Source: a virus. From it: 32,318 nt of DNA. The notes below the pieces were generated by a model that was given only the letters and a program-made list of their open reading frames with translations, did no database searches and was not told the origin of the DNA. The position numbers were made by a program, and so were the translations under genes. Positions 16,893 through 32,318 of this stretch are shown piece after piece. Where the stretch lies: positions 1 to 32,318 of IMG/VR virus record IMGVR_UViG_3300031255_000001; one strand, given 5' to 3'. Position 1 is the first letter of the stretch; every line of letters starts with the position of its first letter.

Positions 16893-17087
16893 TCATTCCT
16901 CTCCTTTTATAATTCTCATTGCCTCTTCAAATTTTATTACATTCTCTGGATAGATCATCAATTCCCGGCCTATCTTCATTGGTTCAAGAATATCGGCGTA
17001 TCTATGAATTAAACGCCTTACCACAAATCTTGTTTTCTTGTTCCATCGCCGCCGGAGATCCTCGGTTGTAAATAATGCTTCAGTCAT
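16893..17087 (-). CDS. Small winged-HTH (MerR/excisionase-like) protein
   Basis: 64 residues: LFTTEDLRRRWNKKTRFVVRRLIHRYADILEPMKIGRELMIYPENVIKFEEAM matches the small HTH_17/excisionase-type fold (helix, turn, helix, then a wing ending in a DNA-facing strand). It overlaps the upstream tyrosine recombinase gene as ATGA (17084-17087), so it may be a recombination directionality partner of that enzyme or a late-gene regulator. Confidence 0.55.
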   Translation of the reverse strand: MTEALFTTEDLRRRWNKKTRFVVRRLIHRYADILEPMKIGRELMIYPENVIKFEEAMRIIKGEE

Positions 17088-17704
17088 ATAACTCCCACAT
17101 TTTCAATAGCCTTATCCACGTCCTCTTCCAGGAAGGATAGATATTGATCAGTGCTTTTTATATCTGAATGGCCCAGGGCTTTTGAAGTTGATCTGAATGC
17201 ATCAAGCGGTTCACCTGCGGCTACTTTAATCAAGAAATATTTATAAATATTATTGGCGAATGTTTTTCTCATGGAATGAGTACCGAGCTTACCATTTAAG
17301 TCTGCCTCACGGAAAGTATTTGTTAATATTTTCCATGCCTGGGTCCTGCTGATTGAATAATTGCCCCGGATAGAACGGAATATACAATCGTCTTTATGAA
17401 TGATATCCATTTTTGTGAGCTCCTTCAACCAGGGGAGAATCCCATCTCGGGCGGCCTTATTTAATAAGACGGTCCGGCTGGTCTTTTTGCCCTTCATATT
17501 TCGTTTAAAAACCGTTAATCTTTTTTTAAACTGGCCATCCTCTTCAAGGACATCTTCCAATCGGAGAGATAGGATCTCAGAAATTCTGAATCCGGTATTG
17601 GCTCCTAAAATAAATAAAGCATAATTCCGGTTTTTCATCGGACCTTTAAAAAGTTTCTTAACTTTCTTGATTTCTGATAATTCTAATGGTCTAGAGCCTC
17701 TCAT
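17084..17704 (-). CDS. Second tyrosine recombinase (short, catalytic domain only)
   Basis: 206 residues, only the catalytic domain of the phage-integrase/XerC-D family; no core-binding SAM-like domain precedes it. The set of active residues is intact: Arg40 (TGFRISEIL), a Lys in the hairpin near 74-77 (MKGKKTSRTVL), His143 and Arg146 (THSMRKTF), His179 (LGHSDI) and Tyr188 (TDQYLSF). It overlaps neighbours by ATGA on both sides. A second recombinase in one phage could resolve dimers, invert a segment or serve as a late accessory factor. No inverted-repeat target was found nearby. Confidence 0.85.
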   Translation of the reverse strand: MRGSRPLELSEIKKVKKLFKGPMKNRNYALFILGANTGFRISEILSLRLEDVLEEDGQFKKRLTVFKRNMKGKKTSRTVLLNKAARDGILPWLKELTKMDIIHKDDCIFRSIRGNYSISRTQAWKILTNTFREADLNGKLGTHSMRKTFANNIYKYFLIKVAAGEPLDAFRSTSKALGHSDIKSTDQYLSFLEEDVDKAIENVGVI

Positions 17705-20888: not shown

Positions 20889-21878
20889 TTATGCGTTTAT
20901 AGATAATTTGATTTTTTCTTTTATTTCTTCCGGGCTAGAATCCGGGGACCCTTTATTGCGCTGGTCCATAACCAGTAATTCCCCATCGCGTTCAATGGCT
21001 TTATCTTTCAGTTTGCTATTGACCCAGCTTTCGGGATACATTCCCATTTCTTCTTTGCCATCTTTGCTGATGATTTTAACGGCCAGCCGTTTCATAAGCG
21101 GTTCATTGGTTTTTTTTTCGGACCGCATCATGGAAAGCCATTTATCAAAATATTTTACACGGGATTTATCTTTATCGCGGAGTTTCATGGGGCTCTGGAA
21201 TTGATCGGCCCAGCAGAAACCCTTATTTTTATCGGTTTGAGAAATTACCCAGGAAACCACTTCCCGGATCTGATCAGGTGGTCGCTTATCAATTCTGATC
21301 AGCTTATCGAAAACTTCATCAAAGCGCTGCAGATCGGATGCTGAAAATTCCAGAGCGGTATGATAGTTTTTAATTTTTTTGATTGAGAAAAGCGTCAATT
21401 CACGAAGAGGCGGGTCGAAATCGGCAGATTTTGACCCTTTATCTTTAACTTCTTCTTCTTCTTCTTCTTCTACTTCTATGGGGGGAGCCTCCTGGATTAA
21501 TCCCGTACACCCCCAGGAGGTTCCGGCGGAATCAGGATAATCGGGCAGATAATCTTCCCCCCGGCGGTCTACTCGAATATCCTGATGCTCATCCTGATTA
21601 ATGGAGTGTAGATAATACATCCCATCCAACTGAAACCATTTTACATTTGTATGCTGTCTGATTTCCTTTAAGCATTCAATAATCTTATTAATATTCAAAA
21701 AATCTATTAATGGTACTATTTCACCCTTAATATAATGAGGATTACCATTCATCTTGCCGTGAGCATTAAAATGCGGAATAAGTAAACAAAAAAGGGAAAG
21801 AGCCTCCGGTGATAGTTTAGCAACTTTTTTGCTTTGCGATATGCTCTTGCGAATCATCCGGCCTTCAATGCGTTTCAT
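20889..21878 (-). CDS. Replisome organiser-like replication protein
   Basis: 329 residues. The N-terminal domain (KAIEGRMIRKSI-type start; KVAKLSPEALSLFCLLIPHFNAHGKMNGNPHYIKGEIVPL) matches the winged-helix start of phage DnaD-like or replisome-organiser proteins that bind the origin and load helicase. A poly-Glu linker (about residues 136-143, coded by CTT repeats at 21449-21471) follows, then a helical part (FDKLIRIDKRPPDQIREVVSWVISQTDKNKGFCWADQFQSPMKLRDK) like the DnaD C-terminal domain. It starts in the end of the upstream gene (ATGA). Location next to RuvC fits replication. Confidence 0.7.
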   Translation of the reverse strand: MKRIEGRMIRKSISQSKKVAKLSPEALSLFCLLIPHFNAHGKMNGNPHYIKGEIVPLIDFLNINKIIECLKEIRQHTNVKWFQLDGMYYLHSINQDEHQDIRVDRRGEDYLPDYPDSAGTSWGCTGLIQEAPPIEVEEEEEEEVKDKGSKSADFDPPLRELTLFSIKKIKNYHTALEFSASDLQRFDEVFDKLIRIDKRPPDQIREVVSWVISQTDKNKGFCWADQFQSPMKLRDKDKSRVKYFDKWLSMMRSEKKTNEPLMKRLAVKIISKDGKEEMGMYPESWVNSKLKDKAIERDGELLVMDQRNKGSPDSSPEEIKEKIKLSINA

Positions 21879-26338: not shown

Positions 26339-26515
26339 TCAAGCAGATTTTTTCTGCCTGGTGAGTTCTTCAAAAGCTTTATCGATGCGCTCAGAATTGC
26401 GCTGCCCGGATATCCAACGGCTCACATGCGAATCATGGACGCCGGCTTTTTTGGCTAATTCTCTCTGCTCAATCCCTAATCTTCTTAAAATCGCCTGTTT
26501 ATCATATCTGTCCAA
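26339..26515 (-). CDS. Cro-like HTH protein
   Basis: 58 residues from TTG 26515, with AGGGGA seven bases upstream. HTH pattern: KQAILRRLGIEQRELAKKAGVHDSHVSRWISGQRNSERIDKAFEEL, with the recognition helix at HDSHVSRWISG. It is the second gene of the divergent early operon opposite the repressor at 26873, the position of Cro in lambdoid phages. It would compete at the operator at 26830-26862; that is inferred. A plus-strand frame over the same bases is a shadow. Confidence 0.75.
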   Translation of the reverse strand: MDRYDKQAILRRLGIEQRELAKKAGVHDSHVSRWISGQRNSERIDKAFEELTRQKKSA

Positions 26516-26777: not shown

Positions 26778-26816
26778 GATGAATTATTTTATTAATAATG
26801 ACAATTATTTGTCTGG

Positions 26817-26845
26817 AATATAAATCGGAATTACGATATTGTCAA
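26817..26845 (-). promoter_or_regulatory. Strong early promoter (PR-like), minus strand
   Basis: On the minus strand, -35 TTGACA (26845-26840) and -10 TATATT (26822-26817) are separated by 17 bases: 6/6 and 5/6 matches to the sigma-70 consensus. It would start the early operon near 26809, giving a short leader before ATG 26777. Confidence 0.75.
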
Positions 26846-26862
26846 GTAAAAAATATCGTAAT
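26830..26862. promoter_or_regulatory. Operator: perfect 11-bp inverted repeat
   Basis: ATTACGATATT (26830-26840) and AATATCGTAAT (26852-26862), spacer 11 bases. One arm lies in the -35/-10 spacer of the early promoter; the other just upstream of its -35. Binding by the CI-like or Cro-like protein would block that promoter. A putative repressor promoter, TTGTCA (26839-26844) with TATAAA (26863-26868), lies over the dyad, facing plus. Confidence 0.7.
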
Positions 26863-26872
26863 TATAAATTTT

Positions 26873-27316
26873 ATGATAAGTGATAGAATAAAAAAATTAA
26901 TGAAAGATAGACAAATTAATCAAAAACAATTATCTATAGGTGCTGGAATCCCCCAACCATCATTGAGTGAAATCTTAAAAAATAAATATGAACCAGGTGT
27001 TCATACAGTTAGAAGAATCGCAGAATATCTTAATGTTGATCTCAATTGGCTTATAACGGGAAAATATTTGGAAGAAAGAAGATTCGAATTCAAGCAGGAT
27101 ATTGAAGTATTAGGCAAGGATATATCTATGGGGAATATTCAAATAATTAAAGAGGGAAATATTATATATGAGAGAAGATCCGATTATAAGCTTGATAAAA
27201 TGTCTGAAATTATCGAAAAGGGTAGGGAGTTATCTCCTTCAAGTAGAGATGCAGTCATAAAAATAATGGATGTTTATCTTGATATTGATAAAAAACAAAA
27301 ACATGGAGATAAATAA
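26873..27316 (+). CDS. CI-like repressor, XRE HTH
   Basis: 147 residues from ATG 26873; upstream frame exists but begins before the operator. N-terminal HTH: MISDRIKKLMKDRQINQKQLSIGAGIPQPSLSEILKNKYEPGVHTVRRIAEYLNVDLNWLITG, typical of phage lysogeny repressors. No S24/LexA protease domain; the C-terminal 80 residues are probably for dimerisation. No ribosome site precedes the ATG, and the -10-like TATAAA at 26863-26868 would start transcription close to the ATG, like the leaderless cI message of lambda from PRM. It shares an operon with two genes below it. Confidence 0.8.
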   Translation: MISDRIKKLMKDRQINQKQLSIGAGIPQPSLSEILKNKYEPGVHTVRRIAEYLNVDLNWLITGKYLEERRFEFKQDIEVLGKDISMGNIQIIKEGNIIYERRSDYKLDKMSEIIEKGRELSPSSRDAVIKIMDVYLDIDKKQKHGDK

Positions 27317-27489
27317 TGGAAGGTGGTATTGCATGGATTTTGGTCTTTATAGGATTAGAAATATTTCTAGTTATTTACCATTTCACTTTACTTAAAGGGA
27401 TTCGTGATTATTCGAAAATATTTTCAGAAGATATTAAAAGAGAATTGGAATTGGTAAAATTTATTGCTAAAAAAATTGATAAATTATGA
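27316..27489 (+). CDS. Small membrane protein between repressor and integrase
   Basis: 57 residues. It starts on the last base of the repressor stop (TAATG) and ends with ATGA overlapping the integrase start. MEGGIAWILVFIGLEIFLVIYHFTLL is a membrane helix; the rest is a basic helix (KGIRDYSKIFSEDIKRELELVKFIAKKIDKL). In the lysogen it would be made with the repressor, so a superinfection-exclusion role is a natural guess. No family recognised. Confidence 0.65.
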   Translation: MEGGIAWILVFIGLEIFLVIYHFTLLKGIRDYSKIFSEDIKRELELVKFIAKKIDKL

Positions 27490-28613
27490 TCCCCCGAAAA
27501 GCCAGCCTCAAAAAACGCCGGAATTTTAAGAATCAAATCAAATTATCATTCCATGATGCAAATCCCCGATATTTCACTCCGGTCTGCGCTGAAGAAGAGA
27601 TACCAGGAATAATCTCACATATTAACCATCTGATAACGCTTGGTAAGTTCTCACCGGAAGATTTTATCCCAGGCCTCCAGGCGGAGCTTATGACTATGAT
27701 TCAGCTTTCGGAAGAATATTTACAATACCGTAAGAAGGCGGTGGGGCGGGACCAGATCAGCAAGGGAACTTATATCAATGATTATGATGCCCTTCATAAA
27801 TTTACCACTTTTATAGGGAAAGAAAAACCTATCCGGCGTATCGGCCGGGAGGATATTGAAAAGTTCGTGGAATATCTGCATAGTATAAAGAATAAGCATG
27901 ATCGGCATTATAAAAATGGGGGGATCATGGCCAAGATCCGGCACCTTAAAATTGCTTTCAGTTATGCCGTTCAGATGGATTATATCCCAAAGAATCCGCT
28001 GTTGCGTTTCAGCCTGCCCCGGGAGAATAAAATAAAAGAAACATTTAGGTATCTTTATGAAGATGAAATTAAAACATTCCGGGAATATTTCTCAAATAAA
28101 CCACCACATCAATTGGATATTTTCGATTTTGCGCTCAATACCGGGATGCGGGCAGGTGGGATCCTATCCGCCCAGTTCCGCTGGATCCGCAATGTTGATG
28201 ATGTTCAATATCTGAGGATTATTGAAAAAAGAAAGAAGGTACGCGATATCCCCCTTAATAATAAATGCATGGAAATAATCGAGCGCCGACGCTCCTGGAT
28301 AGAAAATGGTAAATATGCGGATATTCTCCGCAAAAGTATTGCACCAAATTATTGGAGATTAGCAGCAGGAAGGGCAAAGGCGGGGTTTATATTCTTCGAG
28401 GTTTCCTCTGTTTCCGGTATTACTCATTTCTTTATGCGTGCCAGGCGGCGCCTGGAGAGGGCAGGGAAGCTCCAACGCAATGATGGGATAATATTCCATT
28501 CAACGCGGCATACTTTTGCCACCAGGAGCCTTGAGGCGGGCAAATCAGTGGGTTGGGTGAGAGAAGTCATGGGACATTCTGATATAATTCCACCCAGATC
28601 TATGCGAAAATAA
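27486..28613 (+). CDS. Tyrosine integrase; catalytic Tyr lies in the -1 frame
   Basis: 375 residues as read. It has a basic N-terminus (RKASLKKRRNFKNQIKL, arm-binding), a SAM-like core-binding domain (about 74-155) and the catalytic domain: Arg222 (TGMRAGGIL), His338/Arg341 (HSTRHTFATRS) and His364 (MGHSD). The frame then leaves the family pattern and stops. In the -1 frame from about 28592 the expected ending appears, TQIYAKITGKHLKREFDKE, with the nucleophile Tyr at 28601-28603 and TAA at 28658-28660. So the full gene is 27486-28660 with a one-base deletion or a sequencing error near 28587-28592; I see no standard slippery site. It is coupled by ATGA to the membrane protein and ends next to attP. 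Confidence 0.85.
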   Translation: MIPRKASLKKRRNFKNQIKLSFHDANPRYFTPVCAEEEIPGIISHINHLITLGKFSPEDFIPGLQAELMTMIQLSEEYLQYRKKAVGRDQISKGTYINDYDALHKFTTFIGKEKPIRRIGREDIEKFVEYLHSIKNKHDRHYKNGGIMAKIRHLKIAFSYAVQMDYIPKNPLLRFSLPRENKIKETFRYLYEDEIKTFREYFSNKPPHQLDIFDFALNTGMRAGGILSAQFRWIRNVDDVQYLRIIEKRKKVRDIPLNNKCMEIIERRRSWIENGKYADILRKSIAPNYWRLAAGRAKAGFIFFEVSSVSGITHFFMRARRRLERAGKLQRNDGIIFHSTRHTFATRSLEAGKSVGWVREVMGHSDIIPPRSMRK

Positions 28614-28812
28614 CCGGCAAACATCTAAAGCGGGAATTTGATAAAGAACTGATTTATTAATCAAGAAACTTTTTGATAAATCGATTATAAAAATGAATGC
28701 TAGATTATAATGAGGAGCGTTTTGGGAGCGTGCTATTTTTTCATGTAATCTAGTGCACGCCTTAAATCATTAAAATTATAAAGCATAAAAGAAATATGGT
28801 TACCTGCGAGCG

Positions 28813-28857
28813 GGATTCCTAATCCGGTTGTCGCAGGTTCGAATCCTGCCTGGGGTA
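28813..28857 (+). other. attP core: 3' part of tRNA-Arg(CCT)
   Basis: From the anticodon stem to the end of the acceptor: loop TTCCTAA (anticodon CCT at 28818-28820), 3' stem TCCGG, T-arm GCAGG-TTCGAAT-CCTGC (28833-28849) and acceptor end CTGGGGT plus A (28850-28857). There is no D-arm or 5' acceptor (ACCCCAG) upstream, so it is not a working gene. The 5' anticodon stem has one mismatch at 28812, which likely marks the left edge of identity with attB. Integration would rebuild the host tRNA. Confidence 0.75.
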
Positions 28858-28978
28858 CTAATGAAAACCCAATATATACTTACTTTTAAGACCATCTTAT
28901 AATTGAGAATAATACGAAAAAGACCGAAATCAGCCGAAAATAGAAGGAGCGTTCCAGGAGCGTGTTTATAATTAATTT

Positions 28979-29006
28979 AAGCCCGGGACAGGCAACCCGG
29001 GCTTTT
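28979..29006. terminator. Rho-independent terminator between arm pairs
   Basis: Stem AAGCCCGGG (28979-28987) and CCCGGGCTT (28996-29004), loop ACAGGCAA, followed by TTTT on the plus strand. On the minus strand the T run is weaker (TTAAATTAAT). It probably ends plus-strand transcription from the integrase and the minus-strand tail operon. Confidence 0.75.
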
Positions 29007-29046
29007 GTGGAGGAGGAGCGCTCTGGGAGCGCGGGGGAATATAAAA

Positions 29047-29661
29047 TCAAGCGCTAACCGGTATGGCATAATCCGAATAATCATCTTTATCAATCATGAA
29101 AGATAAATTAATCAGATGAATGACAATTTTATTTCTATTAATAAAGGAATCATGATCCAGAAAATAATTCCTTGAACCAAGTGCAATTTTTTTGCTCTCT
29201 GCGGGAAAATACAATCTAAAATACCAGGTCCCTTTTGATAAAAAATAATTATCTAGCCATGAAGAAAATGCAATTATAGCATCACCATCACCTATAACAA
29301 CACCCAGATTACCAGAAGCTAAAGGATCATTTGTTCCACTATATCTAATACAGGCCAATGTCCCTGCTCCTCCGGTAAGATTAACTTCAATTATCTGAAA
29401 ACCACTGGAATTGTTTTCATAAATATCCCCAACAATCGGCGCATCTGTTATGCCGGATACCGTGAAAACAAAAAAATCAAGATTATATTCCATGGCATTG
29501 GCTTCCACAGCAACCTGATAACCAATAATTTCAGGATTCCCGGAGCGATCTTCTCCAAGTAATTTATTTATTTTATATTGTTTATTATTTTTAGATCGAA
29601 CAGATCCAATATTATAATATGTCCCGGATGCTGATGGGCTAAATTGAAGGTTTGCTCTCAT
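29047..29661 (-). CDS. Tail protein with shared beta module
   Basis: 204 residues. The middle (about 64-140) carries a beta module: FVFTVSGITDAPIVGDIYEN, GFQIIEVNLTGGAGTLACIRYSGTNDPLASG and GDGDAIIAFSSW, closely resembling one in the hub-like protein from 29984. It ends WYFRLYFPAESKKI, DHDSFINRNKIVIHLINLSF. It is last in a coupled tail operon; ATGA overlaps at its start. Probably a tail-tip or baseplate-associated protein. Confidence 0.55.
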   Translation of the reverse strand: MRANLQFSPSASGTYYNIGSVRSKNNKQYKINKLLGEDRSGNPEIIGYQVAVEANAMEYNLDFFVFTVSGITDAPIVGDIYENNSSGFQIIEVNLTGGAGTLACIRYSGTNDPLASGNLGVVIGDGDAIIAFSSWLDNYFLSKGTWYFRLYFPAESKKIALGSRNYFLDHDSFINRNKIVIHLINLSFMIDKDDYSDYAIPVSA

Positions 29662-29987
29662 GTTTCTTTATCCACGTTAATAACCGTTATATTCCCATCC
29701 CTGGGGTTTGCTTTTAAGTCTTTTATTTGTACATCATAAGTCGTAGAATTATAAATAAATTGAGGATTTTCCTCTATTGCCAATTCTTCCAGATAATCCA
29801 GCTGGGTAGATGTCAATATCCCAAAAGTGATTATCCATTTTTTCCATGCCGCATAAACTTTGCGGATCCTGGTCTTATCAGCGGCAGTAAATTCTTTCTC
29901 TTCTGTTTCGAATGAAGGGATAATTTTTACAGCCAAAAAGTCGGTAGCCGCGGATCCAGAATCCTTTTTAAATTGAAATGCTATCAT
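29658..29987 (-). CDS. Small tail protein, unknown
   Basis: 109 residues, soluble: FQFKKDSGSAATDFLAVKIIPSFETEEKEFTAADKTRIRKVYAAWKKWIITFGILTSTQLDYLEELA. It has a beta start, two helices and a beta end (FIYNSTTYDVQIKDLKANPRDGNITVINV). ATGA overlaps on both sides. The middle WKKWIITFG and strand end suggest a tail-tip accessory subunit; no family recognised. Confidence 0.55.
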   Translation of the reverse strand: MIAFQFKKDSGSAATDFLAVKIIPSFETEEKEFTAADKTRIRKVYAAWKKWIITFGILTSTQLDYLEELAIEENPQFIYNSTTYDVQIKDLKANPRDGNITVINVDKET

Positions 29988-31270
29988 ATTTCCAATACCG
30001 TTATGTCTGTGAAGAAATCAAAGATATGATTCTCCGCTTTTAATACTAGGAATTCTGTTCCATCGATAGAAACCTTTCTCCCGGGAGGAATGAATTCCAG
30101 GCATTGAGTTTTAAAATAATCTTTGTCTTTCCTGATATAATAATTATAAATGTCATCGAATGTCTGTGCAATCACAATATCTTTAACCCAGACATTCTGT
30201 ATGGCTCCAAAATCAGCCACCAGATTGAAATCTTTAAGGACATCTATATCATTTATTGATTCGCCGGTAGTGCTTCCCTGGGCTTCTATCCAGGACCATG
30301 AATCTGTCCAGGCTGAAAATGCTATTGTTGCATCGCCGGATCCCGATACGCGGGTTAAAGTCCCGGAAGCCGAAGGGTTATTTGTTCCAGAAGATCTGAT
30401 ACATACCAGGCTACCGATACCTCCTGATATCTTTACATCTCTTATAGTAAAATTACTGCTATTATTTGAATATATATCACCCGGAACCGGGGAAGTTGAA
30501 ACACTTGAAACAGAAAAGACAAAAATCCCGGAAATTTCTTCAGAATATTTAACTCCATCAACATAATTCTCTGTTACGAGTCCCTGCAGCTTTTTATTGA
30601 AAAGAGTTAATGCAATAGTTGAAGGAACTCCATACCATCCATACCAGGTTTTATATTGAAATTTGACACCGTCATAATTAAAGAACATGGCCCCAAAAAT
30701 CTGGCAAAGTTCATTTATAAATTCAGCTGTCTGCTTATTTGAAATGTAGGTTGTATAATCAACACCGGAATCATAATATTTAAAGCGAACACTACCGAAA
30801 TCAAATGCACCATGGACAGGATGAGTATAATGATTGCTGGGGAATATCCCGCCGCTGGAATCCCCCAGTGTAACGATAAAGGAACTTATGAGCAGTCTTT
30901 CAAAATTCCCGGAAAAATAAGTAGATAACCGCTCATTTTTAAAAGTAGTCAAAAATGGATTATAACAGTTAAAAGCTACTGTTTCCTCAATCCGATTATA
31001 TTCAACGCTTCGCGAATCTACCAAAAAAGACATATCAGGGTAAACCGGTGGATTAATGACCAGGTATTTATTATTCCAGTTCGCACCTGTCAGAATGGCA
31101 TCTACCCACCCCGCTTCATTTAATAATTCAATTGAAATATTCATCGGGATGATAAAGCCAAGGCGATCCTGATCTTCAAAGCTTATTGAAAAAGATTTAA
31201 TTAATGAGCCCTCAATATTGGTCCCATCGAGAGTAAGGCCCACATCACCTATTTGGCTGGGAATCGACAT
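29984..31270 (-). CDS. Putative tail hub / distal tail protein
   Basis: 428 residues, mainly beta. The start (IGDVGLTLDGTNIEGSLIKSFSISFEDQDRLGFIIPMNISIELLNEAG) and the later DYFKTQCLEFIPPGRKVSIDGTEFLVLKAENHIFDFFTDITVLEI are like baseplate hub or distal-tail proteins of siphophages, which have barrel-type domains. Between about residues 250-325 lies the module shared with the 29047 gene (VPGDIYSNNSSNFTIRDVKISGGIGSLVCIRSSGTNNPSASGTLTRVSG). ATG 31270 shares a base with the TMP stop (TAATG). Confidence 0.55.
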   Translation of the reverse strand: MSIPSQIGDVGLTLDGTNIEGSLIKSFSISFEDQDRLGFIIPMNISIELLNEAGWVDAILTGANWNNKYLVINPPVYPDMSFLVDSRSVEYNRIEETVAFNCYNPFLTTFKNERLSTYFSGNFERLLISSFIVTLGDSSGGIFPSNHYTHPVHGAFDFGSVRFKYYDSGVDYTTYISNKQTAEFINELCQIFGAMFFNYDGVKFQYKTWYGWYGVPSTIALTLFNKKLQGLVTENYVDGVKYSEEISGIFVFSVSSVSTSPVPGDIYSNNSSNFTIRDVKISGGIGSLVCIRSSGTNNPSASGTLTRVSGSGDATIAFSAWTDSWSWIEAQGSTTGESINDIDVLKDFNLVADFGAIQNVWVKDIVIAQTFDDIYNYYIRKDKDYFKTQCLEFIPPGRKVSIDGTEFLVLKAENHIFDFFTDITVLEI

Positions 31271-32318
31271 TAAAGGGTTTTCCTCCCTTCGAGTTCTTCT
31301 TGCTTCCTCACTACCAGATAAAGATCTCTCCCATCCCCGCGAATAGTTCCCATTATGCGTATATTACTTTTTTCAAAACCCCTTATAATAGCATCTTCCA
31401 ATTTATCAATATTAATTCCCATTGATATATTTGCTGGTTGCTGGACCTGGCCTCCCGCCTGATAACCTGGTGCAGTCCCCCGAGATCCCATTTTATTCAT
31501 AGCCTCGAGGAGCGGAAGAAACATCTTTGTTGAATACTGATTCATGACATATTCATCACGGCGAATTCCAATAATTCCATCCTCACCTGAAGGTGTGAAC
31601 ATACTCTGGAATAGATCAGCCTGAGTAATGAGACCCCCTGCGGCTTTTTTGGATGGTTCGTATTTAATAGATCTGATTTTTTCAACCTGAGCTAAACCAT
31701 TCGCTATTTTTATTGCGGCAACGGCTATGTCAATAGGAAATGGTAATTTCGCAATTGCAAGTGAAGCGCCTTCATAAGTATTAATTATCGCCTGGGCTAT
31801 TGATGCACCTTTACCAAATTCAAACAAGGATTTATATTGACCTTGAAAAGAATCCATCAGATTAGCGCCCTCATTAATCATTATTCTAACAGATTCTTTT
31901 GTCAGTTTCTTTTTTTCTGTTTCATAACTTAATTCTAATGCCCATTTTTTATCAACCAATTGTTTATATAAAGCCGATTCCTCTCCATATTGATTTTTTA
32001 CCATTTCCAGCTGATCATTTATGAGATTTGTCCTGTGGAAATATTCCCGGTCCATTTGATCTTCCCATAACCCGCTGAAATCCGTGCTTACCTGTGCGAG
32101 TGTCCCAAAGGTTTCAATTTCTTTGAAATTAACTTCATCAAGGCGGCTTTTAGCCAGATCAATTGAATCTTTTGATATAAGTTCTTGCGTTTTTGGTGTT
32201 TTTATTTTCAGTGGCGCTGCGCCTTCTCCTGAAAGTACAGATTCCAATAATCCTTTTTTAGAATATAATTCATCAATATTTTGGGCCATTTTACCAAGTT
32301 CCACATCAAAATTTTTAA
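31270..32318 (-). CDS. Tape measure protein, C-terminal part (N-terminus beyond window edge)
   Basis: 344 or more residues visible; the frame is open to the right edge, so the start seen at GTG 32304 is likely internal. The end has a hydrophobic stretch (ANLMDSFQGQYKSLFEFGKGASIAQAIINTYEGASLAIAKLPFPIDIAVAAIKIANGLAQVEKIR), then AAGGLITQADLFQSMFTPSGEDGIIGIRRDEYVMNQ and a Gly-rich part, characteristic of the C-terminus of siphophage tape measures. The first part is coiled coil (LAKSRLDEVNFKEIETFG, QLEMVKNQYGEESALYKQL). The protein sets tail length. It leads the tail-tip operon. Confidence 0.85.
   Translation of the reverse strand, partial: KNFDVELGKMAQNIDELYSKKGLLESVLSGEGAAPLKIKTPKTQELISKDSIDLAKSRLDEVNFKEIETFGTLAQVSTDFSGLWEDQMDREYFHRTNLINDQLEMVKNQYGEESALYKQLVDKKWALELSYETEKKKLTKESVRIMINEGANLMDSFQGQYKSLFEFGKGASIAQAIINTYEGASLAIAKLPFPIDIAVAAIKIANGLAQVEKIRSIKYEPSKKAAGGLITQADLFQSMFTPSGEDGIIGIRRDEYVMNQYSTKMFLPLLEAMNKMGSRGTAPGYQAGGQVQQPANISMGINIDKLEDAIIRGFEKSNIRIMGTIRGDGRDLYLVVRKQEELEGRKTL

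Follow-up and report, generated by a model that had tools for sequence, protein, structure and literature searches.

A probable attP site with a tRNA-Arg(CCT) core and paired GGAGCG boxes in an uncultured temperate phage

The 386-base gap at 28661-29046 in the genome of an uncultured virus is very probably the attP of a temperate tailed phage, with the 3' part of a tRNA-Arg(CCT) gene as the core and with pairs of GGAGCG boxes as putative arm sites. The window analysed here is the whole stretch of DNA in an IMG/VR virus record (32,318 bases; G+C content, 40.6%). Judged by gene order, this record crosses the junction of the two prophage ends, and the arrangement supports a free circle, a virion, or a concatemeric or tandem form of the phage as opposed to a single integrated copy. 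The layout at the gap is the well-known attP layout; the phage itself is new.

Gene order around the gap and in related phages

On the minus strand of the window, the terminase, portal, capsid, tail tube, amidase and additional late genes follow one another up to the left end, and the tape-measure gene, d428, d109 and d204 extend inward from the right end as far as the gap. The coordinates first given are exactly those of the intergenic gap: it lies between the integrase tail, in which a stop codon in another frame ends at 28660, and the end of d204 at 29047, so that the integrase and the late operon converge on it. The tape-measure gene at the right end of the record lacks its start. The record is devoid of end repeats: no exact terminal repeat of 10-200 bases was found in it, and blastn detected no similarity between its first and last 3000 bases, so it is not a closed circle. 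The genes around the gap are as follows.

26798..27316, plus strand: CI-like repressor, upstream of the integrase (PF12844, PF01381, PF07022)
27486..28613, plus strand: tyrosine integrase, the in-frame product of which stops before the expected catalytic tyrosine (PF00589, E 3.9e-14; PF13102, E 1.7e-10; phrog_1, E 2.5e-39)
28583..28660, plus strand: C-terminal tail of the integrase in the other frame (three-frame translation)
29047..29661, minus strand: d204, final late-operon gene (in related phages, its relatives lie downstream of the tape measure)
29658..29987, minus strand: d109, tail-end gene (relatives at the same place in related phages)
29984..31270, minus strand: d428, between the tape measure and d109 (without a confirmed relative)
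31270..32316, minus strand: tape-measure protein, C-terminal part only, truncated at the record end (phrog_3336, E 1.1e-19)

Gene order was examined in 12 related records, 4 of which were informative and appear to represent two lineages; in the other 8, many of them short or more distant, no tape-measure match was found. In the four informative records, which form two pairs (L021 with L022, G069 with G070), the late genes make up a single uninterrupted series on one strand, in the order terminase, tail tube, tape measure, d109 and d204. In the window, these late genes are divided between the two ends, with the tRNA fragment lying between the integrase and the d204 end. In G069, d204 is followed by a gene encoding an NYN-domain protein, a CI-type repressor and further small early genes, and no match to the integrase of the window was found after d204. 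Thus, the order from the late end to the repressor in the window is native, with the window adding the integrase and attP in between. Given that related phages carry both sides in one run, the two sides of the window are parts of one genome. The sequence-only reading had maintained that the core has phage genes to its left and right and that the site is a complete attP, not an attL or attR, in a free, circular or tandem form, and the gene order of the related phages bears this out. Host DNA to the right of 29047, which was considered as a candidate, is ruled out by the same gene order.

Several other features of the record were noticed along the way. By eye, d204 (29047-29661) and d428 (29984-31270) contain an alike internal stretch, perhaps a repeated tail domain; a d428 query produced no match among viral contigs. 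A gene resembling minor tail protein Z (PF06763; 16258-16827) lies upstream of the terminase, apart from the tail genes, and is also kept in the related records L014 and L021. Between the early genes and the terminase, a second, short tyrosine recombinase (17084-17704; 206 amino acids) consists of the catalytic domain only and is 78% identical to its counterpart in L014, a record without a match to the first integrase.

The tRNA core and the paired boxes

The gap contains the following sites.

28714..28730, plus strand: left (P) GGAGCG pair, putative integrase arm-type sites (centres at -102.5 and -91.5 from the anticodon-loop centre)
28813..28857, plus strand: attP core, 3' part of tRNA-Arg(CCT) from the anticodon stem to the discriminator base (arm layout; pattern matches)
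28946..28962, plus strand: first right (P') GGAGCG pair, putative arm-type sites (centres at +129.5 and +140.5)
28980..29006, no strand assigned: GC-rich hairpin with a T run behind it on the plus strand, which may be a terminator where the integrase and the late operon converge (by eye; absent from the list given by a scan)
29015..29031, plus strand: second right (P') GGAGCG pair, putative arm-type sites (centres at +198.5 and +209.5)

From 5' to 3', the core comprises the anticodon arm GGATTCCTAATCCGG (28813-28827), the T arm (28833-28849) and the 3' strand of the acceptor stem with the discriminator base (28850-28857), without an encoded CCA. Core-type sites are often inverted repeats, and the anticodon arm is one (GGATT-CCT-AATCC); together with the 5' limit of the fragment, this suggests a crossover in the anticodon loop. 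As RNA, the core folds no better than its shuffled versions. ARAGORN reported no tRNA over the window, and an Rfam search of 28600-29100 gave nothing for tRNA at E<=1, as expected for half a gene; a full tRNA gene in the gap is thereby ruled out. When the core was turned into a pattern, leaving the variable loop and the first two acceptor positions unconstrained, and run against the genome collection, it retrieved 12 bacterial loci, 11 of which ARAGORN identified as tRNA-Arg(cct). The proposed 3' fragment of tRNA-Arg(CCT) without its 5' half is thus upheld by the position of the arms, the lack of a tRNA call and the pattern matches. The locus that ARAGORN missed is itself a tRNA 3' fragment: a Dehalococcoidia contig (L007, 5408-5444) carries a tRNA-Arg(CCT) 3' fragment without the 5' half, a likely integration scar.

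Searches of the genome collection for the host attB retrieved none. The acceptor stem of the phage is found in none of the 12 loci, a stricter core pattern had no match among genome contigs, and the core pattern had none among viral contigs. With up to 3 mismatches allowed, the core was absent from 8 genomes from the 12 loci, from 40 genomes of the phylum of G005 (Calditrichota) and from 18 genomes of the phylum of G008.

The GGAGCG boxes start at 28714/28725, 28946/28957 and 29015/29026, all on the plus strand, as direct pairs 11 bp apart, so that repeated boxes are present on both arms outside the core (one pair on the left and two on the right), in exactly the positions first described. The hexamer is overrepresented in the window: counting both strands, it is present 19 times, whereas 7.5 copies are expected, and none of 100 shuffles contains as many. 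The exact form GGAGCG-N5-GGAGCG occurs three times, always within the gap. With up to 3 mismatches, the pair is matched 13 times against 9.2 expected, a count reached by 13 of 100 shuffles; at this chance level, only the exact pair form is special. In none of 2000 dinucleotide shuffles of the 386-base region did three equally spaced identical 6-mer pairs appear (spacing, 7-20), the maximum being two such pairs, in 11 shuffles. Sliding along the real window uncovered one other triple-pair case, CTTCTT at spacing 9 in windows starting at 21101-21441, which is simple sequence. Taken individually, the left pair is reached by 36 of 3000 shuffles at spacing 11 and by 163 of 3000 when the spacing is left free at 9-13. 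Boxes scattered over the rest of the phage genome had been named beforehand as an argument against an attachment site; single boxes are indeed scattered, with 13 copies elsewhere in the window, and no exact pair lies elsewhere in the record. Scattered regulatory boxes are ruled out by the confinement of the exact pairs to the gap.

A search of viral contigs with the box pair and its flanking bases retrieved 35 loci. All of them lacked another pair and a tRNA T-loop within 400 bases as well as a relative of the integrase, and they were therefore taken as chance matches. The GGAGCG pairs most likely are arm-type sites for the N-terminal domain of the integrase; their binding by integrase, as dimers, is putative.

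The integrase and its relatives

The site adjoins the integrase gene, which ends at 28613 (with the tail, at 28660), upstream of the core start at 28813, in the order integrase, left pair, tRNA 3' half. The protein contains a catalytic and a SAM-like domain. Its reading frame is lost near 28583-28613, so that the catalytic tyrosine is not in frame in this record; the tail at 28583..28660 contains a motif typical of the catalytic tyrosine region. This copy of the integrase may be inactive, or it may be misassembled through an assembly indel.

Searches of viral contigs for the integrase, with the single protein and with a three-row alignment, produced no match, and neither 4 nor 36 related phage records contained one. 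Among 343 genomes from the G009 phylum, the alignment likewise had no match, and comparison with solved structures yielded none; the integrases found in phage records are only distant (22-26% identity). The best relatives come from two Calditrichota genomes (2 of 40), at 31% identity. In one of these, a Calditrichota chromosome (L109, 2929-4298), two copies of CAGTCAAA with an 11-bp spacing come after the integrase, and then a tRNA 3' fragment that by eye resembles tRNA-Thr; this stretch is likely an element end. In the other (L018), the integrase, with one stop, is followed by GTGAGA twice, 11 bp apart, and then by an intact tRNA-Arg(CCT). The wholeness of the latter tRNA is a poor fit to a simple junction, which predicts a 3' fragment. 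At spacing 11, the repeats are reached by 16 of 3000 shuffles for L109 and by 79 of 3000 for L018, and with the spacing free at 9-13, by 53 and 369 of 3000, respectively. The GGAGCG sequence itself is not shared with the repeats of either locus. For three more distant integrases from the same two genomes (L116-L118), no tRNA T-loop was found within 700 bases downstream; L117 has an 11-bp-spaced repeat of low complexity.

The 11-bp repeats in L109 and L018 are no more than suggestive. It is conceivable, although we would rather doubt it, that the integrase represents a small, little-described group (this phage and the two Calditrichota genomes) in which the geometry of an 11-bp pair between the integrase stop and the tRNA is fixed and the repeat changes (GGAGCG, CAGTCAAA, GTGAGA), with the box and the N-terminal domain co-evolving.

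Alternative readings, integration and known systems

Helix-phased direct repeats are also used by excisionases, such as lambda Xis and P2 Cox, so that the GGAGCG pairs, within a genuine attP, could be sites for an excisionase (recombination directionality factor) and not for the integrase; the sequence analysis does not tell binding by the two apart. We consider this unlikely, given that boxes on both arms, well off the core, fit integrase arm sites better and that no excisionase-type family was recognized among the small ORFs scanned near the integrase, one of which encodes a small HTH protein (26339-26515). The boxes could also be operators of a repressor or another regulatory repeat without a role in recombination, with a CI-like repressor gene close by. 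The copies nearest to this gene, at 28290 and 22226, lie away from its promoter, and the exact pairs all surround the tRNA core, which leaves such a role exceedingly improbable.

Two other readings concern the record and not the boxes. At the junction of two tandem prophages or in an integrated concatemer, the sequence would equal attP, and the record would be chromosomal, not free phage DNA. The recognised ORFs of the record are phage genes, and tandem arrays look uncommon, with 125 tandems of at least 2 beside 3919 islands in the excerpted Islander account (PMC4383910); this origin is accordingly quite improbable. tRNA cores are common to many elements and can mislead assembly, and a chimera of two unrelated phage pieces joined at the core would be compatible with the absence of the integrase from all 36 related records and with the loss of its frame. 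The same box pair is found on both sides of the core, and in the same related phages, relatives of genes from the two sides form one run, so that we assign only a very slim chance to such an artefact.

Under the attP reading, the integrase (27486-28613) would bring the tRNA-Arg(CCT) 3' core together with the identical stretch of a host tRNA gene, with the crossover probably in or near the anticodon loop (28816-28822), and the phage-borne 3' half would rebuild the host tRNA. The N-terminal domain of the integrase would occupy the three pairs, which lie at about -97, +135 and +204 relative to the centre of the anticodon loop. The DNA in between (68 and 72% AT, against 59% overall) would bend, allowing the same integrase molecules to hold the core. 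The 11-bp step would place both boxes of a pair on approximately one face of the helix. The pairs may be bound by integrase dimers; in such complexes, two neighbouring arm sites can also belong to separate protomers.

Paired arm sites around tRNA cores are already known in mycobacteriophages and oenophages, and the mechanism holds nothing new. The argW gene of E. coli is a tRNA-Arg(CCU) gene. In the excerpts of the cited papers on which these comparisons draw, the KplE1 prophage of E. coli (IntS, argW) likewise combines a tyrosine integrase, arm-type and core-type sites, and a tRNA gene target, but its duplicated core is 16 nt, whereas the shared stretch here reaches the anticodon stem (PMC2951348). 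In the Cluster K mycobacteriophages CrimD and Pixie and also in Giles and L5, the core derives from a tRNA or tmRNA 3' end, and pairs of putative arm-type repeats lie on either side of it (PMC3203893). The phage described here is like Pixie in its direct sites (in Pixie, a pair on the left and three on the right, around a 47-bp tRNA-Lys core), like L5 and Giles in that the pairs are direct, and, in its possible terminator, like CrimD, which has a stem-loop terminator between the core and the right sites; the right sites of CrimD are inverted relative to the left ones (PMC3203893). It differs from these phages in box sequence, target tRNA and integrase, and in having two full pairs on the right (PMC3203893). 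Phages of Oenococcus oeni similarly have tRNA 3'-end cores and direct repeats on both arms, for example, 2 on the left and 4 on the right, which have been proposed as integrase arm sites; the box sequences and hosts differ, and lysogen attL and attR are known for the oenophages (PMC8074189). The tRNA-gene islands of Islander also resemble the site, with an attP of about 250 bp that carries a tRNA fragment; the anticodon-centred site is a common class there (2083 of 3919 islands), and 3' fragments account for 3760 of 3919 (PMC4383910). Unlike these islands, which were mapped in chromosomes, the present phage is seen only in the attP form (PMC4383910).

Judging by the integrase relatives, large-genome Calditrichota or their neighbours are a place to seek the host, but the Calditrichota tRNAs seen have an acceptor stem other than that of the phage core. 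With this site, an uncultured phage without a close isolate is recognized as temperate, its target being a tRNA-Arg(CCT) gene, and the 45-base core provides a sequence tag for tracing the host.
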